A stretch of 64,000 nt of DNA. Origin: Flavobacterium dankookense (GTDB lineage Bacteria; Bacteroidota; Bacteroidia; Flavobacteriales; Flavobacteriaceae). Each line of letters opens with the position of its first letter. Position 1 is the first letter of the stretch. The stretch spans positions 248,001 through 312,000 of the forward strand of contig NZ_SNXR01000013.1 in assembly GCF_004362665.1 (NCBI RefSeq), read 5' to 3'. The notes under the pieces are model-generated. The model did no database searches and was not told the DNA's origin. It worked only from the letters and a program-made list of their open reading frames with translations. A program made the translations under genes and the position numbers. Shown here piece after piece: positions 15,293-49,397 of the stretch.

Positions 15293-16597
15293 CTAGAAAA
15301 CATCATAAAATCGCCAATGCACAAACAACCCTATGAGAATAATGTAAATAAGATTATTTAAAGTAAATAATCCTTTGGCTAAGAAGCTCCAACTATTTTC
15401 CTTAAAAAGTCTGTAATTAATAACAGAAAAAGGAAATATAAGCACCAATAATAGAAAGGGTAGGTATGAAGTCAAACTCACAAAAACATTTGTCGGGTCT
15501 TTGTATGGCGCAGGAAAGTAGAATACGTTAACACTACCGCTCAATACAATCATATAATAAAACAAGAATAAACCATTTGGAACCAGCACCAGTGGAATAT
15601 AAGCGTACTTTAAAGTCTTTTTTCTTCTGAAATAGTGAATTAGAAAGAAAATAGAAGTCAATAAAAAAAATCCAGCAGATGCCACTATAAATAATCCAAT
15701 TGCAATACTATCCTTTGGGGTTTTGAAATGGCGCAATTTTTCAAATTCAGCATTGTGCGGAAATAAGGTTTCTATCGCAATACTATGGTCGCCTTTTTTT
15801 AATTCTTCGCTTACGTTGAATTGAACCGTTGTTTTGTAGTCGTGATAAAAATATAAGTTCACAGTCTTATTTTTTAAATCCCAAATAGAAGAGAGTAAAG
15901 TGCCATCGCCAATTTTTTTTCTACAAACGTGCATCTTGTCTGATAGCGCTGTACAATAGGCTAATGAAGTGTCAAAACCGTTCTTTAAAAAGGCTACGCC
16001 GTTTCGGTATCTATCAAGTTTATTAGCATTTTGTTCAAGAGTTATCGAAGGACAAAAATTTGAAATCACATATGTCGGTTCGTTTCCTATAGTCAAAGTA
16101 TAGGGTTCAACAATCAAATACTTCCCCGATTGGTCAACATAGATAAAAACATCTTCAATAAAATAGCTATGGTCATAGTTACTTATAAACGCTCTAACTT
16201 CTTCTACAGATTTACACGAATGAAGAATGTCTTTTAAATACTTTGTAGGGTTAGAAATGGTCTTTCTGTTTGCGAAATTTTCTTTAACAGGATGATGAGA
16301 AGCAAGTCTTTCAAAAGCCAAACCCATTTCATTCATTCCAGATTGTGGTGCATAGCCGTTGGCACCATCATATCGCGAACCTGTAAAAGCGGCACCATAT
16401 AAACCGTTGCCTTTGCCTTTTTCGAACCAAATATGTGGAGTTACTCTCCAAGCATCTTCATTGCTTCCAAGTATCGTTTTATCACCACTCGTAATTTTAT
16501 AACCACTGCAAGCACCACTTTTTTGTATAAATACAAAAGATAAAATCGTAAATAAAATAAGTTTTACGAACAGCGTTTTCTTTATTCCTCTCATCAT
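15293..16597 (-). CDS. Ntn-hydrolase-like protein (linear amide C-N hydrolase type) with C-terminal membrane domain
   Basis: A 434-aa protein. After the signal peptide the mature part appears to begin CSGYKITSGDKTILGSNEDAW, with Cys as the first residue, the arrangement used by N-terminal-nucleophile amidohydrolases of the choloylglycine/acyltransferase type; NEDAW fits the family asparagine/aspartate motif. The hydrolase-like part runs to about residue 285. About four transmembrane helices follow, which is unusual for this family. The substrate cannot be read; a lipid-linked amide or N-acyl amide near the membrane is an inference. It is the first gene of the all-minus island, and repeat module R1 supplies its promoter. 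Confidence 0.55.
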   Translation of the reverse strand: MMRGIKKTLFVKLILFTILSFVFIQKSGACSGYKITSGDKTILGSNEDAWRVTPHIWFEKGKGNGLYGAAFTGSRYDGANGYAPQSGMNEMGLAFERLASHHPVKENFANRKTISNPTKYLKDILHSCKSVEEVRAFISNYDHSYFIEDVFIYVDQSGKYLIVEPYTLTIGNEPTYVISNFCPSITLEQNANKLDRYRNGVAFLKNGFDTSLAYCTALSDKMHVCRKKIGDGTLLSSIWDLKNKTVNLYFYHDYKTTVQFNVSEELKKGDHSIAIETLFPHNAEFEKLRHFKTPKDSIAIGLFIVASAGFFLLTSIFFLIHYFRRKKTLKYAYIPLVLVPNGLFLFYYMIVLSGSVNVFYFPAPYKDPTNVFVSLTSYLPFLLLVLIFPFSVINYRLFKENSWSFLAKGLFTLNNLIYIILIGLFVHWRFYDVF

Positions 16598-16691
16598 ATA
16601 GTTTCTAAGGTGACAGTTGTTTTTTTATTGTTCGTTCAGCTTGCAGTTGTTGATCTTACTATATAACGTTAGACTTTGAAAAATAGTATAG

Positions 16692-16826
16692 TCCTTCCAC
16701 CAAATATACTAAAAACAGTTCAGACCCAACAGGTTTTTAAAACCTCTCAGGTCTTGTGTTGGTTTTATGTAATGGATTATTAGTTCAAGTTTGTGGGCAC
16801 GGATTTCAAATCCGCGCGATTTGGGA
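16692..16826 (-). repeat. Repeat module R1 with promoter box
   Basis: First of the repeat modules between minus-strand genes. On the minus strand it reads: the CGGATTTGAAATCCG hairpin, a degenerate GACCTGA/TCAGGTC hairpin, then TATATTTG (plus coordinates 16701-16708), an exact -7 box about 104 bases before the start codon of the Ntn-hydrolase-like gene. At 16664-16676 (minus GTCTAACGTTATA) the end resembles cassette junctions. Bases 16598-16939 otherwise hold only this module and the terminator at 16867. Confidence 0.75.
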
Positions 16827-16866
16827 TTGTGATTAGTGGTTTTCTTTTGAATTACAACTTCAAAAC

Positions 16867-16899
16867 AAAACCTCTTTTAATAGCTTTAAAAGAGGTTTT
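16867..16899 (-). terminator. Terminator of the propeller/T9SS gene
   Basis: Perfect 14-bp stem AAAACCTCTTTTAA / TTAAAAGAGGTTTT with a 5-base loop, 41 bases after the stop codon on the minus strand, with a T-rich tail. Confidence 0.88.
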
Positions 16900-16939
16900 A
16901 TTATAATTATTTTTGAAGGATAAAGTATCTACAATTATA

Positions 16940-18178
16940 CTATTTTTTTATAATTTTTTCAGTAGTTCTATTTCCTTGAATATCTGTAATCATTACTAGG
17001 TAAATACCAGAACTTAAATCACCCAAGTAAATTCTGTCTTCCGTAAAGTTTACATTATTTAAAACCCTGCCGTTCAAATCTGAAATATTTACTTCTTTTA
17101 AAGCTATATCACTTTTTATATTTAAAAAATCTGATGTTGGATTTGGATATAAGGATAGTTTACTTCTTGAATCATTATCAGATAATCCTAGTGTTGAATC
17201 ATTTATTATTACAACTTTGTTATCAGTAGTGTTAAAAGCGTAACATCCATTACCACATGTTATTATGTTTTTTACATTGCCAAAGGCTTGTGTGATTGAT
17301 AGACTATCAAACAGCAAGAAAGTAGTCGGGTTAAATCTTTTAAAAGTTATGTTTCCATTCCAATCATAACTTGCGTAACAAACTCTATTGTAATAATCAT
17401 CATATACAACTGGACCAGAAACGTTTGAAAATTGTCCACTTACAAAAGGAGCTGAGGACATGTCTACAACTGTTCCATTAGTTGCATATAGTGTATTGTT
17501 TTTATATACAAAATCTAAACCAAAACCAGTTAAAACACCTGCATTCACACTTGAATTAGAAACGCCACCGGCATTTACGCTTAATCGTCTTAAACCATAT
17601 TCGGTGCTTTCTGTATTATAACCTACCAAAGTAGTAGCACTTGTAAACTCAAATACATTACTGCCTGTATGGTCTGGCGTAGTGGTTGGTCGCATCACAC
17701 TATCATCATAAATGGCAACTCCACCGTGGGTTGGCGATACGTTTGGTCTTCTTCTTGACACTGCAATCGTATTTGGACTTCCAGGCATAACTTCGATATC
17801 TTGAGCATAAAAGGAACCAAAAAAGGGATCGCTACCCAAACTAAATTGAAGCCCTGCAGTTTGGTTAGCAACATCAAAACGTCTAATAGTCGATGTTCCA
17901 GTAAAACCTGCATAAACATATTGTCCATTATCAGAAATTGCAAGTACAGATGGCTCACTACCAATAAAAACGGTATTTTCTAAAGTTTTTGTAACTGGAT
18001 TTATAACGCCAATACTATTTCCATTTGCTCCATTTGCACTTGGTATACTTGCATAAATTTTATTAGTTACAGAATCATAAACTAAATCATTTACAGTTAA
18101 ATTTAGCGTTTGTACTTGTAGTTGAGCAAATGTTATAGAGTTGCTTCCAATTAGTAATAAAAATAGAATTCTTTTCAT
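16940..18178 (-). CDS. Beta-propeller protein with T9SS sorting domain
   Basis: A secreted 412-aa protein. Signal peptide at residues 1-19 (ending TFAQ). Residues 25-335 have repeated blades of the YncE/WD40-like kind (IGVINPVTKTLENTVFIGSEPSVLAISDNGQYVYAGF), predicted to form a seven-blade propeller. Residues 340-412 are a T9SS type A sorting domain (LSLYPNPTSDFLNIK to TEKIIKK). No enzymatic motif. It shares strand with the island genes, and the module remnant at 18349-18372 (CTAGTGGTGGTTTTATGAAATAG part of the repeat) lies upstream. Confidence 0.8.
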   Translation of the reverse strand: MKRILFLLLIGSNSITFAQLQVQTLNLTVNDLVYDSVTNKIYASIPSANGANGNSIGVINPVTKTLENTVFIGSEPSVLAISDNGQYVYAGFTGTSTIRRFDVANQTAGLQFSLGSDPFFGSFYAQDIEVMPGSPNTIAVSRRRPNVSPTHGGVAIYDDSVMRPTTTPDHTGSNVFEFTSATTLVGYNTESTEYGLRRLSVNAGGVSNSSVNAGVLTGFGLDFVYKNNTLYATNGTVVDMSSAPFVSGQFSNVSGPVVYDDYYNRVCYASYDWNGNITFKRFNPTTFLLFDSLSITQAFGNVKNIITCGNGCYAFNTTDNKVVIINDSTLGLSDNDSRSKLSLYPNPTSDFLNIKSDIALKEVNISDLNGRVLNNVNFTEDRIYLGDLSSGIYLVMITDIQGNRTTEKIIKK

Positions 18179-18437
18179 ATCAATTTATTAGTTATACTGT
18201 ATTTATGGTTGACAAAACTACAAAAGTTTTTTAATAGCTTACTTCTTTGTTTAGTAAAAAAACTACTTTTTTTGAATACTACGCATCAAAAAATGTATCA
18301 AACCGTTGTTTGATGCAATGCTTTAGAGCGAAACAGGTACTAGTGGTGGTTTTATGAAATAGATTTTAAATTCGGTTGATTGAGTAGAAAATAAAAGTAG
18401 CTATTGTGCCGAACCAATGTTACCTGACGTTTCTTTT

Positions 18438-19043
18438 TTAGTTTCTGTATGTTACTTTTTTTTCAACGTTCCACTTTTTAGTAATTTCTGAGTAAGAATA
18501 TGTAATTCCTTCCTCTGATAAACTATTCACTCTAACATAAACGTGAAGAGTTTTCTTTTCACTGTCTATGTAATCCGGAAAGTATAACATTTGGTGAGAT
18601 AAATATTTGTCAAGAACAAATTGTTGGTTTTCATTTTGAATGTAAAAATTATAAATTGGTCCACCGTTTCCACCTTCTTCACGTTTTATTGCGATATCTT
18701 CTTTTCCATCAAAGTTTAAGTCTGTAACTATCAAATCTCCAAAGTCATTCTCATTTGATTTTAAAAATTCATTTGCAGAATATTTTTTATTGTTAAGACA
18801 TTCTTTGAAACTTTTAGATTTCAAAATAAATTCACTTTCTATTTTTATCCTTTGGATTTTTTTTAGTTTTATTTTATCATGAATTCCAATTATTATTTCA
18901 GCCTTTCCCAAATCTTTATCGTCTTTTGATACTAACATAATATCAAAGTCATAAGTTTTAGAAAGATCGAATTCAAGACAATTTTGAGCATTACCAAAAT
19001 TGAAAATTATAAATCCAAATAATAAGAATAGTTGTTTTTTCAT
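18438..19043 (-). CDS. Secreted protein with FG-GAP-like calcium loop
   Basis: A 201-aa exported protein with a signal peptide ending GNAQ. A single VTDLNFDGKEDIAIKREEGGNGGPIYNFYIQN segment resembles an FG-GAP/XAC2610-type repeat, in which the DxNxDGxxD loop binds calcium. No other domain recognised. It is one of the cassette-like minus-strand genes: module R2 lies directly upstream, ending about 20 bases before the ATG. Function unknown. Confidence 0.6.
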   Translation of the reverse strand: MKKQLFLLFGFIIFNFGNAQNCLEFDLSKTYDFDIMLVSKDDKDLGKAEIIIGIHDKIKLKKIQRIKIESEFILKSKSFKECLNNKKYSANEFLKSNENDFGDLIVTDLNFDGKEDIAIKREEGGNGGPIYNFYIQNENQQFVLDKYLSHQMLYFPDYIDSEKKTLHVYVRVNSLSEEGITYSYSEITKKWNVEKKVTYRN

Positions 19044-19062
19044 GTCGGGTTCTTAAATGCCA

Positions 19063-19203
19063 CACAACCCCAGACTGCAAAAACCTCACACCCGAGCACT
19101 AGCGAATTGACAAAGCAATCCTTCCACCAAATATACTAAAAACAGTTCAGACCTGACAGGTTTTTAAAACCTGTCAGGTCTAGTGGTGGTTTTATTTAAA
19201 ATC
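19063..19203 (-). repeat. Repeat module R2 with promoter box
   Basis: Contains a perfect 31-bp hairpin at 19150-19180 (arms GACCTGACAGGTTTT, one-base loop) and the -7 box TATATTTG on the minus strand (19128-19135), about 85 bases before the gene at 19043. It ends on the minus strand with GCAGTCTGGGGTTGTGTGG, the junction motif shared with R3 and R4. The distal CGGATT hairpin of the full module is missing here. Confidence 0.8.
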
Positions 19204-19253
19204 TAGTTTTTTGAAGGAGTTGAGCAACATTTATAGCTGTTATAGACAGTGTC

Positions 19254-19565
19254 TTAACTATTTTCATTTTCAATTTGGGAAATCCATATTTTCAGTCTCT
19301 TTATTTGCCTCTCTTTTTTACTGATTGAATTATAATAAACAGAAATATACATCAGGGAAAACAATACAAAACATATAATTATAGAAATTTCATAAGGAAA
19401 AACTTCGATCATTTTTTTTCCTCTTAAGGGAATTGTAGGAATTAAAAACGGAAATAAAATAACGGCTGCAATTCCAAATGGTCTCATTTTTTTCAATTTG
19501 TTAATTGAATTTTCATTCTCTATAATATCAATTTTATATTTTTCAACTGTCTCTTTTTCGGTCAT
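19254..19565 (-). CDS. Small two-helix membrane protein
   Basis: A 103-aa protein of unknown function. Two predicted transmembrane helices (about residues 28-48 and 58-80) lie between a charged N-terminal segment (TEKETVEKYKIDIIENENSINKLKK) and a basic C-terminal helix (KKERQIKRLKIWISQIENENS); both soluble ends look like short coiled coils and would face the cytoplasm. It is a cassette-like island gene preceded by module R3. No homologue recognised. Confidence 0.55.
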   Translation of the reverse strand: MTEKETVEKYKIDIIENENSINKLKKMRPFGIAAVILFPFLIPTIPLRGKKMIEVFPYEISIIICFVLFSLMYISVYYNSISKKERQIKRLKIWISQIENENS

Positions 19566-19603
19566 TATATTTTCTATTTATAGAGTTTTTCAAGGACATT
19601 GCA

Positions 19604-19800
19604 CATAACCCCAGACTACAAAAACATCACACTCGAGCGCTAGCGAATTAACGAAGTAATCCTTCCACCAAATATACTAAAAACAGTTTAGACCTGACAG
19701 GTTTTTAAAACCTGTCAGGTCTAGTGGTGGTTTTATGAAATAGATTATTAGTTCAAGTTTGTGGGCTCTGATTGCAAATCCGCGCGATAGGGTTGCGAAT
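19604..19800 (-). repeat. Repeat module R3, the fullest copy
   Basis: Read on the minus strand: AACCCTATCGCGCGGATTTG at the far end, a CGGATT/AATCCG hairpin, the conserved CATAAAACCACCACTAGACC stretch, a perfect 31-bp hairpin (19692-19722), the -7 box TATATTTG (19670-19677), a variable segment, and the junction GTCTGGGGTTATGTGCAATG. The far ends are inverted relative to each other (AACCC / GGGTT). The promoter box is about 105 bases before the gene at 19565. Confidence 0.85.
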
Positions 19801-19808
19801 TTCTATTT

Positions 19809-20264
19809 TCAATGAGCAAAACGCATTAATTGTTGTAATGAGTTTTGAATATTCCGTATTTCGAGTGGCAAGTTTTTATTACAATGTTCTGCAAATTCAA
19901 TCAATTCCAAAATTCTTTCATTCAATTTTGTATTAGATTTTATGCGCTGAAACATTTGACTTTTATTTTTTGAAAAAGAAACTTCTGAAAGCAAAATGAT
20001 AATGTAATTGAGTATCTGTGAATCCATTTTCTCAAGTGTAATTTTTAGCACATCAAATGAACTTTCGGAAACATCAAAAATTGAAATATTAAAATCCTTT
20101 TTTATATTTAAATCTAAATCGATTAATTTCTTCACTAAGGTTTTCTCTCGCTTTTGAAATATCCATTCAAGAAATTCTGAAAACTTCTCAATCAACAATC
20201 CTATTGCTAAATTACCTGCTTGCATTTTATTTTTATAATTTATTCCGAGCTCGTTTTCACGCAT
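19809..20264 (-). CDS. Hypothetical helical protein
   Basis: A 151-aa all-helical, soluble protein without recognised family. It is rich in Leu/Ile/Lys with amphipathic stretches (LAIGLLIEKFSEFLEWIFQKREKTLVKKLIDLDL). The ATG lies within a few bases of the junction of module R4 (GTCTAGGGTTATAGGCAATG), so the module supplies both promoter and start region. Its stop is 8 bases from the far end of R3. This tight packing between two repeat modules is what one expects of a cassette. Confidence 0.55.
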   Translation of the reverse strand: MRENELGINYKNKMQAGNLAIGLLIEKFSEFLEWIFQKREKTLVKKLIDLDLNIKKDFNISIFDVSESSFDVLKITLEKMDSQILNYIIILLSEVSFSKNKSQMFQRIKSNTKLNERILELIEFAEHCNKNLPLEIRNIQNSLQQLMRFAH

Positions 20265-20265
20265 T

Positions 20266-20431
20266 GCCTATAACCCTAGACTGCAAAAACCTCACAATCC
20301 TTAAACCAAATATACTAAAAACTGTTCAGACCTGACAGGTTTTTAAAAGCTGTCGGGTATAGAGGTAGTTTTTTTAAATAGATTATTAGTTCAAGTTTGT
20401 GAGCACGGATTGCAAATCCGCGCGATAGGGT
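20266..20431 (-). repeat. Repeat module R4 with promoter box
   Basis: Bounded by inverted ends AACCCTA / TAGGGTT. Contains a partly decayed GACCTGACAGGTTTT hairpin, a CGGATT/AATCCG hairpin, and the -7 box TATATTTG on the minus strand (20307-20314), 43 bases before the gene at 20264. The variable segment seen in R2 and R3 is deleted here. It abuts the 21-bp array that begins at 20433. Confidence 0.8.
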
Positions 20432-20940
20432 TTATTCTGCTTTCGACATTGTCTTTTTCGATTGTGCGGAAGCTTTGTTCGCTTTAGACATTACTTTGTT
20501 TAGTTGAGACATTGTTTTGTTCAGTTCAGCCAAAGCTTTGTTCGATTCGGACATTGTCTATTCTGTTTGCGCCAATGCTTTGTTCGATTGCGCCAACGTC
20601 TTGTTCGGTTGTGCCAATGCTTTGTTCGATTGCGCCAAGGTCTTGTTCGAATGCGCCAATGCTTTGTTCGATTGCGCCAAAGCTTTGTTCGATTGTGCCA
20701 ACGTCTTGTTCGATTGTGCCAACGTCTTGTTCGATTGCGCCAAGGTCTTGTTCGATTGCGCCAATGTCTTGTTCGATTGAGCCAAGGTCTTGTTCGAATG
20801 CGCCAAAGCTTTGTTCGATTGCGCCAATGCTTTGTTCGATTGCGCCAAGGTCTTGTTCGATTTTACCAAATGTTATTCTATTTCGATAATTCGATTACTT
20901 TTTTCGGTTGCGTTTGTTGATTTTCTGCACGATTTGTCAT
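20432..20940 (-). pseudogene. Decayed heptad-repeat ORF
   Basis: On the minus strand an ATG at 20940 opens MTNRAENQQTQPKKVIELSK and stops. One frame over, heptads of the type SNKTLAQ/SNKALAQ run from 20869 to an in-frame TAG at 20558-20560. The same frame then continues in heptads (TMSESNK, ALAELNK, TMSQLNK, VMSKANK) to a TAA at 20432-20434. One frameshift near 20880 and one nonsense change would therefore restore a single product of about 168 aa built almost wholly of 7-residue repeats. It may instead be a repeat array that never coded; the open frames in other phases are by-products of the 21-bp period. Confidence 0.5.
20433..20873. repeat. 21-bp tandem array 1 (21 units)
   Basis: Twenty-one units keep exact 21-bp register across 441 bp. 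On the plus strand each unit is TTGTTCGATTGCGCC followed by six variable bases, most often AATGCT or AAGGTC. Units 1-6 (20433-20558) are more diverged; units 7-21 are nearly uniform. The first unit of each block begins TATTCT, and TATTCT recurs just after the last unit, at 20874, as if marking block ends. Confidence 0.9.
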
Positions 20941-20963
20941 TTTGAGCAATTTCCTAAAAACTA

Positions 20964-21097
20964 TCAGCTAACGTTTTGCAGCTTGGCGAAGTAGCGGACT
21001 TTGAAGCACTTACTTTCAATTTAGCACTAAATATCATTTGATAACCGAATGTTCAATTTAGCACTAAACCCGCCATTTTGCCAAACTGCTGTTAGCT
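20964..21097. repeat. attC-like imperfect hairpin element E
   Basis: Bounded by perfect 8-bp inverted ends CAGCTAAC / GTTAGCTG. Inner arms GCAGCTTGGCGAAGTAGCGG (20977-20996) and CCGCCATTTTGCCAAACTGC (21070-21089) pair at 16 of 20 positions. The loop carries two direct copies of TTCAATTTAGCACTAAA (21014-21030, 21051-21067). It shares ends and layout with element F but differs in stem sequence. No protein is encoded. The overall plan resembles integron attC sites, though the standard RYYYAAC/GTTRRRY cores are not met. Confidence 0.65.
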
Positions 21098-21265
21098 GTT
21101 GTTTTTCTTTTTCGCAATAATTGAATAAACCGTTGCAATTTTGTCTTCCAAATGTATTTTAGCTCTATTATTGCAAGATTGTCGATTTATTTCAATATAG
21201 TTGTTTTCATTATTCATTCTTTAAATGTTTATAAACAGATGATTTAAAAGTCGAATGCTTTTAAT

Positions 21266-21727
21266 TTAAATTTCTAAAATCATATCGTATCTATGCATTC
21301 CGATTTCATAGTAATCATTTGTTATTTTTGTTACTTTAAATCCGTACTTTTCAAAGAAACCATATGAATATTGTGTAGTATCAATGATTATAGGAAACTT
21401 TGGCTTGAGCAGTTTTATTTGTTCAATTCTATAGTTTAAAAGCTTTTCACCATAACCCATTTTATGAAAATCTTTATGAATTAATCCCCAAGCCAATGAT
21501 ATAATTCCATTGTTGTCTTTATCTCCAAACCCACCACAACCAATTGTTTTGTTATTATAATTAATTACATAAAATTGAGTTTTGTTATTGACGCTTTCAA
21601 GTCTTGTTAAAAAGGCTTCGAAGTATTGTATCTCTTCATTTGTGAAATACGTAGGGACATTACTCTTAAAAGCTTTTATGCAACTAAGTCTGTCTGTATT
21701 TAAATATTTTTTTATTTGTACTTCCAT
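21266..21727 (-). CDS. GNAT family N-acetyltransferase
   Basis: A 153-aa cytoplasmic acetyl-CoA-dependent acyltransferase. The GNAT core is visible: FYVINYNNKTIGCGGFG (strands 2-3), then IISLAWGLIHKDFHKMGYGEKLLNYRI, in which HKMGYG fits the acetyl-CoA pyrophosphate-binding motif (Q/R-x-x-G-x-G/A), and a C-terminal FEKYGFKVTKI strand. The acceptor substrate cannot be inferred. It lies between hairpin elements E and F, a placement like that of acetyltransferase genes in integron cassettes. The 165 bases between its stop and element E hold no feature I recognise. Confidence 0.8.
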   Translation of the reverse strand: MEVQIKKYLNTDRLSCIKAFKSNVPTYFTNEEIQYFEAFLTRLESVNNKTQFYVINYNNKTIGCGGFGDKDNNGIISLAWGLIHKDFHKMGYGEKLLNYRIEQIKLLKPKFPIIIDTTQYSYGFFEKYGFKVTKITNDYYEIGMHRYDMILEI

Positions 21728-21757
21728 TTTTTTAACAGTTTACGTTTTTCAAAATAA

Positions 21758-21890
21758 CAGCTAACGTTCTGCAGCTTGTAGCAGTAGCGTTTAAATTTAC
21801 CAAAACTTTTGATTAAAAACTAACCAATACAATTACAAAAGCGATTTTCAGTAATGCCCGAAAGCCGCTATTGCTACAAACTGTGGTTGC
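21758..21890. repeat. attC-like imperfect hairpin element F
   Basis: Left end CAGCTAACGTTCTGCAGCTTG matches element E, but the inner stem is different: GCAGCTTGTAGCAGTAGCG (21771-21789) against CGCTATTGCTACAAACTG (21866-21883), pairing with two mismatches. The right end (GTGGTTGC) has diverged from GTTAGCTG. It lies directly upstream of the GNAT gene, about 30 bases from its ATG, and 10 bases from the stop codon of the next gene. Confidence 0.6.
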
Positions 21891-21899
21891 AAGAGGTTT

Positions 21900-22466
21900 T
21901 TATTGTTTAGTTAATACCATATTGGCAGGAGTTTTGAAAGGTGTTGTGTCAAATGGATAACAATCTGCACCACCATTAAAATCTACTCTATTCCAAGTCA
22001 ATTTTTCCACACCATTGTTGTTAGAATAAGTTAAATCAACATCTCCAATAATTCTTCTTCCACAAGGATTGTCAGTTGGTTCATCAAAATATATACTATT
22101 TCTATTCGAAAACGAACCATTGTTGCTGCTAACAAATTTATCGTTGGTTACATTATAGATTTCTACACCGTTTAATTTATATTGATAAAGACCAATAATT
22201 CTATCGTTATAGATGGTAATTTTTTTATTAGCAATTGGGGTTTCTCTGTAATACGTTTGTTTATAAAATTGTATTTTAAAATAATGTGTACCATCATCAA
22301 AAACCCAAGTACCAACATATTTGTTTAAAATGTTATTAAAATCTTTAAAATAAACATGTTTATTTTCATCAGGATTAAAGAATGTCTCAAGAGGTTTTTC
22401 AACAATAGTTTGTGAAAATCCAGATAAACCAAAATATAAGAATAGTATTTTTATTAGATTTTTCAT
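21900..22466 (-). CDS. Secreted DUF6705-like protein
   Basis: An exported 188-aa protein with a signal peptide ending GFSQ. The core LNKYVGTWVFDDGTHYFKIQFYK, with repeated beta strands and a late paired Cys (NPCGRR, GGADCYPF), fits a small lipocalin-like barrel as in DUF6705 (recalled, not checked). Function unknown. It lies 24 bp downstream of the larger lipoprotein gene on the same strand, so the two probably form one transcript. Confidence 0.6.
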   Translation of the reverse strand: MKNLIKILFLYFGLSGFSQTIVEKPLETFFNPDENKHVYFKDFNNILNKYVGTWVFDDGTHYFKIQFYKQTYYRETPIANKKITIYNDRIIGLYQYKLNGVEIYNVTNDKFVSSNNGSFSNRNSIYFDEPTDNPCGRRIIGDVDLTYSNNNGVEKLTWNRVDFNGGADCYPFDTTPFKTPANMVLTKQ

Positions 22467-24197: not shown

Positions 24198-24505
24198 AAA
24201 ACACATCTGCAACAACAAAAAATCGCTTTGCAAACATCAAAAACATATCTGCACAGCTTCAAAACCTCTTTGCATGCAACGAAAACATATCTGCACAGCT
24301 CCAAAACATATCTGCACAGCATCAAAACATATCTGCACAGCATCAAAACATATCTGCACAGCGTCAAAACATATCTGCACAGCATCAAAACATATCTGCA
24401 CGGCGTCAAAACATATCTGCACAGCTCCAAAACATATCTGCACGGCATCAAAACATATCTGCACAGCATCAAAACATATCTGCACGGCTCCAAAACCTAT
24501 TTGTT
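24198..24505. repeat. 21-bp tandem array 2 (14 units plus a partial)
   Basis: Fourteen units in exact 21-bp register to 24491, then a partial unit. Each starts AAAACATATCTGCA, nearly invariant, and ends in seven variable bases (CAGCATC, CGGCGTC, CAGCTCC). Units 1, 2 and 4 are diverged (CACATCTGCAACAAC, TCGCTTTGCAAACAT, CCTCTTTGCATGCAA). Because 21 is divisible by 3 and stops are rare, several frames are open through it; none has credible coding features. Confidence 0.92.
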
Positions 24506-24852: not shown

Positions 24853-24865
24853 CCAATCTTCCACC

Positions 24866-25096
24866 AAAAAAACGCAAACGTTCATAAAAGAAATGCAAAC
24901 GTTCACGAAAGAAACGCAAACGTTCATCAAAGAAATGCAAACGTTCATCAAAGAAATGCAAACGTTCAGCAAAGAAATGCAAACGTTCATCAAAGAAATG
25001 CAAACGTTCACAAAAGAAATGCAAACGTTCAGCAAAGAAATGCAAACGTTCAGCAAAGAAATGCGTTCTTCCAAGAAAGAAATCGCTTCTGTTTTT
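24866..25096. repeat. 21-bp tandem array 3 (11 units)
   Basis: Eleven units in exact 21-bp register. The clean ones read AAAGAAATGCAAACGTTCA plus two variable bases (TC, GC or CA); the last two have decayed. A different sequence from arrays 1 and 2 but the same period. Open frames through it (heptads of the type KEMQTFI) have no credible start region or flanking domain. Confidence 0.92.
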
Positions 25097-46941: not shown

Positions 46942-47001
46942 TTAACAAATATAGTAAAATAGTTTTTGTGGGCACGGATTGCAAATCCGCGCTATCGGGT
47001 T
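46942..47001 (-). repeat. Repeat module R5 (short form) with promoter box
   Basis: CAAATATAGTAAAATAGTTTTT followed by GGGCACGGATTGCAAATCC and GCGCTATCGGGTTGCC: the two ends of the R3-type module with the central hairpin deleted. On the minus strand it gives TATATTTG (46946-46953), 71 bases upstream of the gene at 46875. Confidence 0.75.
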
Positions 47002-47477: not shown

Positions 47478-47514
47478 AGAAAAAATCTATTATTTGGTTT
47501 TTGTACTTAATTAA

Positions 47515-47734
47515 ATTGGTTAAAAAACATAATTCTATTGGTTAAAAAACATAATTCTATTGGTTAAAAAGCATAATTATATTGGTTAAATCGCCTAACA
47601 TTATTGGTTAAATTACCTAAGTTTATTGGTTAAATTGCATAACTCAATTGGTTAAATTGCATAACTCAATTGGTTAAATTATATAATTCTGTTGGTTAAA
47701 TTGCCTAACTCTATTGGTTATTTTAACCAAGTAA
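47515..47734. repeat. 22-bp iteron array (10 units plus a degenerate one)
   Basis: Ten units in exact 22-bp register. Each starts ATTGGTTAAA; the other 12 bases vary around TTGCATAACTCT with CTAA or ATAA conserved. The last unit contains a perfect inverted repeat TTGGTTA / TAACCAA. A degenerate eleventh unit (47493-47514) leads up to the HTH promoter. As 22 is not a multiple of 3, coding is excluded. Beyond the array, 47735-47809 has nothing recognisable. Confidence 0.93.
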
Positions 47735-47927
47735 TTGAGTTTGATACTCTTTTCAGTTCTTTTTTTGTCTTTGTAGGTAAATAAAATTTAAGAAGTATAC
47801 ATGTTTCTAAAATCCTGTCAGGTCTAGTGCTGGTTTTATGGAATGGTTTGTTTGAGTTGTTGAACAAGTATTGGAGTCTATTGTGGCGCAAAGCCTTGAG
47901 ACTATTGATAGCTTGTCTCTATAACTA

Positions 47928-48407
47928 CTATTTTTTTAAATACTTAAGTTTTACTGATTCTCTAATTTTTTTTATGGAATCAATAAATTTAATCCCAAAT
48001 CTTTTTTCTACTTCTTTATTCATTACTTTTTCATAACAGTTTTTTTCTTCTTCATTTTCTGCGGGTATGCAACCACTTCCGAAAGCATATCTGATACTAA
48101 TTTTACTATTAGCAAATCGTTCTTTCATTTCATCTGCTTCCATTGTGGTTGTAAACATATTTGAATAAAAGAAGTATTTTAATTTTCCACGCTTGATATC
48201 AGCATAGGCTTTCTTTTCATTATCGCTACAACTAGTTTTAACAAAAACTAATCTTTTGTTTTTATTTTTTGGATCAAAAATTTTTTCATCTTCTTCATAT
48301 TCATAAACTATAATTGTGTCAAGGTTATTTTTATGCTTCTGTTGTTTTTCTTTATTGCATGACAAATAGAGCGGGAAAATTAAAAGTAGTAATATTATTT
48401 TTTTCAT
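47928..48407 (-). CDS. Small lipoprotein, duplicate copy A
   Basis: A 159-aa lipoprotein (FPLYLSCNKEK) of unknown function: acidic and lysine-rich, with a TSCSDNEKKAYADIKRGKL segment and a GSGCIPAENEEEKNCYEKVM segment, giving three cysteines in the mature part besides the lipid-attached one. By eye it differs from copy B at about ten residues. Same orientation as copy B. Preceded by 346 bp without a gene that holds only AT-rich sequence, the hairpin at 48581 and the start of copy 2. Confidence 0.7.
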   Translation of the reverse strand: MKKIILLLLIFPLYLSCNKEKQQKHKNNLDTIIVYEYEEDEKIFDPKNKNKRLVFVKTSCSDNEKKAYADIKRGKLKYFFYSNMFTTTMEADEMKERFANSKISIRYAFGSGCIPAENEEEKNCYEKVMNKEVEKRFGIKFIDSIKKIRESVKLKYLKK

Positions 48408-48580
48408 ATCGGATTGTCTTATAGGCTAACCACAGATAGTTTAAAAGTACGGAAAATCAACACTAGGGATATTAGTCTTATATTCATACTACTTTCAACT
48501 ATATTCAAAAATAACCAAATAATTATAATCTAATACACATTTTTAGGTTAACCAACGTCAAGTATTTATTAAAAACAAAG

Positions 48581-48605
48581 AAACCCTGTTACTAAAACAG
48601 GGTTT
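48581..48605 (-). terminator. Hairpin between duplicated lipoprotein genes
   Basis: Stem AAACCCTGTT / AACAGGGTTT with a 5-base loop; on the minus strand it is followed by a T-rich run, so it can end the transcript of copy B. The matching hairpin after copy 2 (49406-49430) has decayed. Confidence 0.6.
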
Positions 48606-48753
48606 TGGATTTTTGGTTAGACCTAACAAGTTTTTAAATCCTGTCAGGTCTAGTGCTGGTTTTATGGAATGGTTTGTTTGAGTTGTTGAACAAGTATTGG
48701 AGTCTATTGTGGCGCAAAGCCTTGAGACTATTGATAGCTTGTCTCTATAACTA

Positions 48754-49233
48754 CTATTTTTTTAAATACTTAAGTTTTACTGATTCTCTAATTTTTTTTA
48801 TGGAATCAATAAATTTAATCCCAAATCTTTTTTCTACTTCTTTATTCATTACTTTTTCATAACAGTTTTTTTCTTCTTCATTTTCTGCGGGTATGCAACC
48901 ACTTCCAAAAGCATATCTGATATTAATTTTACTATTAGCAAATCGTTCTTTCATTTCATCTCCTTCCATTGTGGTTGTAGACATATTCATATAAAAGAAG
49001 TATATTAATTTTCCTCGCTTGATATCAGCATAGGCTTTCTTTTCATTATCAATACAACTGGTTTTAACAAAAACTAATTTTTTGTTTTTATTTTTTGGAT
49101 CAAAAATTTTTTCATCTTCTTCATATTCATAAACTATAATTGTGTCAAGGTTGTTTTTCTGCTCGTGTTGTTTTTCTTTATTGCAAGACAAATAGAGCGG
49201 GAAAATTAAAAGTAGTAATATTATTTTTTTCAT
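48754..49233 (-). CDS. Small lipoprotein, duplicate copy B
   Basis: Paralogue of the gene at 47928, also 159 aa with the same lipobox and cysteine pattern. Replacements such as S to I, K to I, S to M and A to G lie in the middle third; by eye roughly ten codon changes alter the amino acid and about five do not. Both copies remain intact, so both are probably expressed. Function unknown. Confidence 0.7.
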   Translation of the reverse strand: MKKIILLLLIFPLYLSCNKEKQHEQKNNLDTIIVYEYEEDEKIFDPKNKNKKLVFVKTSCIDNEKKAYADIKRGKLIYFFYMNMSTTTMEGDEMKERFANSKINIRYAFGSGCIPAENEEEKNCYEKVMNKEVEKRFGIKFIDSIKKIRESVKLKYLKK

Positions 49234-49397
49234 ATCGGATTGTCTTATAGGCTAACCACAGATAGTTTAAAAGTACGGAAAATCAACACTAGGGATATTA
49301 GTCTGATATTCATACTACTTTCTACTATATTTCAAATATAACCAAATAATAATAATCTAATACACATTTTTAGGTTAACCAACGTCAAGTATTCATT

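Follow-up and report, generated by a model that had tools for sequence, protein, structure and literature searches.

Box-bearing repeats of Flavobacterium dankookense as probable remnants of attC-targeting insertion sequence ends in a decaying integron-like cassette cluster

Integron gene cassettes are usually pictured as promoterless units read from a single promoter at the head of the array, with distal cassettes mostly silent. Promoters inside cassettes are nonetheless described (PMC8876359, PMC11014356), attC hairpins are reported to hinder translation (PMC8876359), and insertion sequences (IS) of the IS1111 type that target attC, the cassette recombination site, are known (PMC11187229). 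Phyla with integrons include Bacteroidota (PMC8618304, PMC9668308), and intI genes are reported from the Bacteroidetes/Chlorobi group (PMC2426708); the main text of a study of taxon-specific attC models mentions neither Bacteroidetes nor Flavobacterium (PMC8352920). Here we analyze four repeats, R1-R4, in a 64,000-nucleotide stretch of the Flavobacterium dankookense genome (the window; contig NZ_SNXR01000013.1, positions 248,001 to 312,000). Each carries a -7 promoter-type box, TATATTTG, pointing into the minus-strand gene that follows. An earlier note had read these repeats, together with a fifth place, R5, as portable promoter modules. We conclude that R1-R4 are probably leftover ends of an attC-targeting IS which bear outward boxes and lie where cassettes join in a decaying integron-like cluster.

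In the arrangement that we propose, ~15.3-21.9 kb of the window would be a decaying integron-type cassette cluster on the minus strand. An IS1182-like insertion sequence would insert at the crossover core AACG/TT of attC-like sites, and R1-R4 would keep one IS end without the transposase. The kept end would bring an outward -7 box starting 40-67 bases ahead of the GTT that opens the next cassette, and the gene behind it would gain a promoter at near-constant distance. Also present in the remnants are a palindrome and a CGGATT hairpin, which would be separate repeats lodged there. The genes would travel in the form of cassettes, recombined site-specifically at GTT and not through the repeat.

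Comparison with described systems places this locus closest to chromosomal integron arrays and to CALINs (clusters of attC sites lacking integron-integrases), which likewise hold short genes, folded sites with an AAC...GTT core and a single direction, and which in the latter case have no intact integrase nearby. In contrast to these, the Flavobacterium recombinase lacks the IntI-specific stretch and its gene lies upstream, pointing the same way as the array, and many Flavobacterium sites carry an outward -7 box. IS1182-like elements resemble the element in the domain make-up of the transposase, whereas the preference for attC cores and the transposase-less ends left at cassette joints are particular to the present case. 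The IS1111-family attC targeters ISKpn4 and ISPst6 (PMC11187229) are similarly aimed at cassette recombination sites; however, the element here has DDE and DUF772 domains (Pfam) in place of a DEDD transposase, inserts at AACG/TT and bears an outward -7 box at its end. The DEDD transposase of the IS1111-attC group was thus not seen, Pfam giving DDE families. Cassette-borne promoters described for cmlA, qnrVC, toxin-antitoxin and gene-less cassettes (PMC8876359, PMC11014356) also provide reading from promoters other than the array-head promoter Pc. Those are placed in the cassette leader or body, whereas the box here precedes the crossover and belongs to the attC loop or to an IS end. Among the matches listed in searches of the open-licence PubMed Central literature, which leaves subscription journals outside, nothing was found on attC-loop promoters, on such Flavobacterium arrays or on an attC-targeting IS1182-like element.

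Inspection of the repeats reveals one homologous family of four. A 205-base query around R3 retrieved R2 (E 2.6e-53) together with R4 and R1 (E 1.3e-47 for both). Of the five copies counted in the earlier note, R1-R4 (E <=1.3e-47) belong to this family and R5, which has the CGGATT hairpin and the box at another spacing, does not. TATATTTG occurs on the minus strand at all five places (first base 16708, 19135, 19676, 20314 and 46953), separated from the start codon by 103, 84, 103, 42 and 70 bases in the order R1-R5; these gaps of 42-103 bases agree with the 40-105 bases given earlier, and R2 and R3 do show a perfect palindrome in the hairpin, as had been noticed. Two other features had been described too broadly: the CGGATT hairpin is absent from R2 and has one altered base in R3 and R1, and the inverted ends AACCC...GGGTT are found in R3 and R4 only. 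The junction motif has diverged in R1 (GTCTAACGTTATATAG) and is reread here as an IS end (AGTCTRR), an attC core (GTT) and a cassette start. The box-to-GTT spacing is short in R1 and R4 (41 and 40 bases) and long in R2 and R3 (67 each), and the GTT lies 7-67 bases ahead of the next start codon. The module is a composite of the palindrome, the CGGATT hairpin and the segment from TATATTTG to GTT. The palindrome occurs alone in other species and the CGGATT hairpin is likewise found alone; 46 of 100 searched genomes, the own genome included, match some part of the query, and outside the own genome the pieces among the matches listed are <=54 bases. An exact 27-base module pattern gave 0 matches in the contig collection, a search in which the own genome was possibly not included. 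Of the module's parts, only the segment from box to GTT is informative.

This segment connects R1-R4 to insertion sequence ends in other species. In genome G300 it occurs twice on contig C23, ahead of a HigB/helix-turn-helix pair and a DUF6364/PIN pair, both of toxin-antitoxin type, ~30 kb downstream of a recombinase (C23:162-1199) and in the same direction, with bases 20001-21999 outside the fetched sequence. R2 aligns end to end with the second G300 site at a score of 80 (shuffled maximum 42), and the score of its far half alone was matched by 0 of 1000 shuffles. Relatives of the G300 sites continue into a gene for a transposase that has the domains DUF772 and DDE_Tnp_1_6, and in locus L285 (genome G014) an open frame with both domains lies inside an attC-like site. 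At the left edge of the insertion in L285 the attC-like sequence ..CGGCGGAACG (..GGAACG) passes into the IS start TCAGGCTGTGAAAAAAC; at the right edge the IS end GTTTTTTCACAGTCTGG is followed by CGTTAACC. The motif TCAG[AG]CTGTGAAAAAAC stands at both ends of the element in L285, and R1-R4 hold a diverged copy at one end only. The transposase is also present in L274 and, in pieces, in L265 and L279.

The insertion-site preference at these other loci is clear from the sequences: the IS terminal repeat occurs 16 times among the fetched loci, and 14 of the 16 abut AACG, 5 of these directly behind an attC arm, a count that is not a genome-wide rate, many of the loci having been chosen for an attC or element match. 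At the end on the transposase-start side, TAnnTTTG points outward in 12 of 16 candidate ends and inward in none, in a search made without a box requirement (an earlier search had demanded one). In the short form of the end, 33-34 bases separate the outward box from the end motif; in the long form the distance is 60 bases. Eleven of the 12 box-bearing ends read TATATTTG and that of L257 reads TATTTTTG; among the four boxless ends, L137, L269 and L278 resemble chance matches and L240 reads TGTATTTG. Against four such IS ends, the best scores of R1-R4 over the four tried are 38, 59, 57 and 50 (shuffled maxima 30, 27, 24 and 24), and the further end L246 gives 51, 42, 40 and 49, in comparison with <=27 for six other window boxes against five IS ends. 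The homology of the ends is shown at the level of sequence, and R1-R4 look like, at most, remnants of one end of an IS1182-like, attC-targeting insertion sequence. The four R1-R4 boxes share descent and are not independent events; TATATTTG occurs 13 times on both strands of the window versus 5.8 in 30 shuffles (range 2-10).

The cassette setting was assessed with a covariance model of attC built from 23 aligned sites, 21 from tyrosine-recombinase loci of other species and 2 from this genome, in which 16 of 16 consensus stem pairs show compensatory changes. S1 and S2, on either side of an acetyltransferase gene beside R4, combine the conserved core with the conserved fold and are attC-like by sequence. 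They are the 2 window members of 29 such sites in the 3.2-Mb genome (E 0.001). Among the other loci, 10 of the 13 fetched hold 79 sites, and 79 of 79 are oriented as the recombinase. As a separate candidate for the identity of the sites, Flavo-1 RNA was rejected: Rfam thresholds give only transfer-messenger RNA and Flavo-1 (1785-1922) across the window, L154, L118, L215 and L219. The Flavo-1 RNA at 1785-1922 itself scores 61 bits (gathering score 42), and two sub-threshold matches lie inside the island. A longer attC-like joint is seen in L118, L134, L135 and L165, with the first half TAACAGCNGTAACTGTTGCACAAC followed by a terminator-like hairpin; it does not fit a simple insertion as in L285 and has the appearance of a site in which the attC loop was replaced in full.

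Cassette status can be followed furthest for the gene after R1, which has 50 relatives in the contig collection. It recurs behind differing upstream DNA: in 8 foreign loci, picked out of the 50 by a GTTA pattern, the common leader begins at GTT, with a mean pairwise identity over 20 bases of 0.28 before and 0.68 after, which places the cassette boundary at G/TT. Sites found with the attC model end at the leader GTT in L287 and L331 and stand just behind the gene in L287, L291 and L317. On this sequence evidence, the acetyltransferase, which lies between two attC-like sites, and the gene after R1 behave as movable single-gene units. That is to say, of the earlier proposal of single-gene units moving through the repeat, the movable genes survive and the repeat as recombining unit does not, the edge being GTT. 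The genes after R2-R4 have only the flanking motifs and are putative cassettes, and the recombinase described next would be the one that moved the genes. A search with the proteins of the island in the 1.5 Mb of foreign DNA that had been fetched (E 1e-4) returned one full-length relative, that of the gene after R1 in L263, together with shared sorting tails and ~30% identity relatives of 47928-48407. Upstream of the alanine dehydrogenase relative, 15 of 20 fetched regions hold the neighbouring beta-lactamase-family gene, and none of the other window genes queried (1950-25201) was found in those 20 regions at E 1e-5 and >30% length, with shorter matches filtered. No empty site is visible because the best dehydrogenase relatives are 90% identical.

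The recombinase of the arrays is represented in this genome by a 120-amino-acid C-terminal piece beside four attC-like sites on contig C8, the only recombinase of this kind found here and a truncated one. Relatives of this piece occur in 150 of 299 genus genomes (E 1e-28). With at most 11 candidates scored per genome, the median number of attC-like sites is 10 with and 3 without a recombinase homologue (149 genomes each, p 3e-16); at least one site occurs in 113 of the 149 genomes lacking a homologue, and no site in 5 of the 149 having one. Three intact relatives reach 202-215 bits against TIGR02249 (integron integrase), below the cut-off of 265, and 214-232 bits against NF040815 (cut-off 220). 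Between the two matched blocks, 22 residues are unaligned in the Flavobacterium protein versus 64 in IntI4, and the IntI-specific stretch is lacking. TIGR02249 at E 1e-70 matched 0 of 299 genus genomes and also 0 of 14 control genomes, and is therefore uninformative. Judged by its neighbourhood, the recombinase would work like an integron integrase without one defining IntI feature. The mover of the genes would be an integron-like system with a recombinase lacking the IntI-specific insert, not the repeat. Such a recombinase may hide arrays from searches that require the insert. The contigs of five genomes (L153, L155, L156, L157 and L158) stop 0.1-4.8 kb past the recombinase, as repetitive arrays would cause.

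Boxes also occur in ordinary attC loops. In the first set, from which 2 of the 79 sites were left out as too short, TAT[AC]TTTG is present in sense in 26 of 77 usable sites and reversed in none, with 0.5 expected (maximum 3 in 200 shuffles); 12 of 49 remain after removal of similar sites. The second set, drawn from 18 genomes other than those of the training set, gives 97 of 295 in sense and 0 reversed with 1.6 expected (maximum 6 in 100 shuffles), or 19 of 101 non-redundant sites with 0 reversed and 0.6 expected, where 298 matches became 295 on dropping a reverse reading in L223, a site cut at the locus end in L218 and one site <110 bases. The attC model takes in loop positions and some of its training sites bear a box, and the model may therefore favour box sites. 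Of the 97 boxes, 94 begin 60-64 bases ahead of the site's 3' end, aimed at the next cassette, and 227 of the 295 sites are followed by an ATG frame of >=40 codons that starts no more than 130 bases on, at a median of 28 bases. The loop sequence around the box is otherwise diverse; 7 of 19 array loci have no box at all, and S1 and S2 have none.

Several observations weigh against reading R1-R4 as IS ends at cassette joints. R1-R4 give no significant match to the attC model (best 6.4 bits, E 4.5), which rules them out as ordinary attC sites, and no transposase remains in any of them. With two of the four IS ends R3 scores less than its best shuffle, as R1 does with one, and an insertion like that in L285 does not account for TAACAGCNGTARCTGTTGCACAAC, the left part of R2 and of the sites in G300. 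The window leader of the gene after R1 has an identity of just 0.48 to the other leaders after GTT and 0.34 before it; in a gapped alignment of the leaders the identity climbs to 0.60-0.68 (14 foreign loci aligned, 13 used for identities). R5, without the IS terminal repeat, still scores 43 against IS ends (shuffles 27), and part of the score therefore stems from the box neighbourhood alone. Finally, no -33 element was found in the attC loops: a TTG at the consensus distance of 17-23 bases from the box stands in 4 of 24 distinct box-bearing loops versus 2-9 of 24 in shifted controls.

That repeat and gene form one mobile unit with its own promoter, recombining through the repeat, as the earlier note had it, would account for four copies each ahead of a different gene, and the gene after R1 does have a 52% relative in G014 that follows a boxed IS end. 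We nevertheless regard this as quite improbable: the piece shared elsewhere for the gene after R1 begins at GTT with different DNA before it, and none of the other genomes sampled yielded the long module. Alternatively, R1-R4 could be mere pile-ups of intergenic palindromic repeats, of the repetitive extragenic palindrome (REP) or miniature inverted-repeat transposable element (MITE) kind, next to ordinary genes and with an incidental box. The palindrome and the CGGATT hairpin do stand alone at many intergenic places, but IS ends of other species, likewise placed ahead of genes, share homology with the segment from box to GTT, and other genomes carry the gene after R1 as a cassette; we consider this explanation unlikely. 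The earlier observation that the box points into the next gene holds beyond this genome, as that placement recurs in other species.

A different question is whether the TAT[AC]TT motif of attC loops and IS ends serves a structural role or recognition by the recombinase and is no promoter at all, a possibility we lean against but keep in view. Its fixed position and lack of reversed copies would suit such a role, as would the missing -33 and the boxless array loci. On the other side, the motif equals TAnnTTTG, the mapped sigma-A -7 box of F. psychrophilum (PMC9723704), a form present in R1-R5 as well as in the 97 box-bearing attC sites. The surrounding loop is diverse, the motif recurs in an unrelated IS end, and boxless arrays still hold high-scoring attC sites. 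Judging by this match, the boxes would presumably have promoter activity. More tentatively, and with a little less than even confidence, we envisage a relay in Flavobacterium integron-like arrays in which the attC site or a lodged IS carries a promoter aimed across the crossover and would drive the downstream neighbour's cassette and, when the cassette is an excised circle, its own gene, with a XerA-like recombinase without the IntI insert. Transcripts would then start in the attC loop and omit half of the translation-hindering hairpin. A bolder reading would make attC joints of the genus promoter carriers in general. With promoters at the joints, expression could extend over the whole length of long arrays in a genus common in the environment, and cassette order would set which joint drives which gene. 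A DDE insertion sequence that targets attC would then offer another way to the same outcome.

Table 1. Coordinates of the repeats, attC-like sites and genes in the window.
Feature	Position	Strand	Description
R1	16665-16830	-	CGGATT hairpin; palindrome 16722-16754; -7 box 16701-16708; IS-like end; GTT 16665-16667, start of the cassette with gene 15293-16597
Terminator-like hairpin	16866-16900		Upstream of R1; predicted from sequence
R1b	18334-18373	-	Partial copy without box or junction
R2	19061-19246	-	Palindrome 19149-19181; box 19128-19135; GTT 19066-19068; aligns end to end with G300 site
R3	19598-19790	-	Hairpin; palindrome 19689-19722; box 19669-19676; GTT 19607-19609
R4	20267-20432	-	Hairpin; palindrome 20328-20361; box 20307-20314; GTT 20272-20274
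R5	46946-47000	-	CGGATT hairpin and box, the latter somewhat like IS ends; no copy of the module
S1, attC-like site	20966-21097	-	Covariance model, 104 bits
S2, attC-like site	21759-21892	-	Covariance model, 73 bits
GNAT acetyltransferase gene	21266-21727	-	Between S1 and S2, beside R4
Gene after R1, 434 aa	15293-16597	-	Cassette in other genomes; weak match, below cut-off, to C45 acyltransferase/hydrolase family
Gene after R2, 201 aa	18438-19043	-	XAC2610-related domain; putative cassette
Gene after R3, 103 aa	19254-19565	-	No family found; putative cassette
Gene after R4, 151 aa	19809-20264	-	No family found; putative cassette
aa, amino acids.

R5 has only the CGGATT hairpin in common with the R3 query (39 bases, E 4.8e-8) and is not a module copy, because its box lies 21 bases from the hairpin versus 91 in R1, R3 and R4. 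By sequence it may be a more decayed IS end or may have only the box neighbourhood in common. Partial copies without a box lie at 18334-18373, 47799-47852 and 48617-48678. Within 47799-49270, a 159-amino-acid gene is duplicated in tandem (47928-48407 and 48754-49233), with a boxless partial module behind each copy. A REP-associated tyrosine transposase (RAYT) is no more than a possible source of the CGGATT hairpin: the genome has one Y1 transposase, whose flanks carry hairpins similar, not identical, to it. In another genome of the genus, >=9 copies of the CGGATT hairpin cluster at L023 596-1882. Four unrelated tandem arrays lie at 20529-20862, 24235-24500, 24865-25064 and 47504-47720 (15.9, 12.6, 9.5 and 9.9 copies); their periods of 21, 21, 21 and 22 bases amount to a nearly common period of about two helical turns, and all four lie beside or inside two regions with unusual genes.

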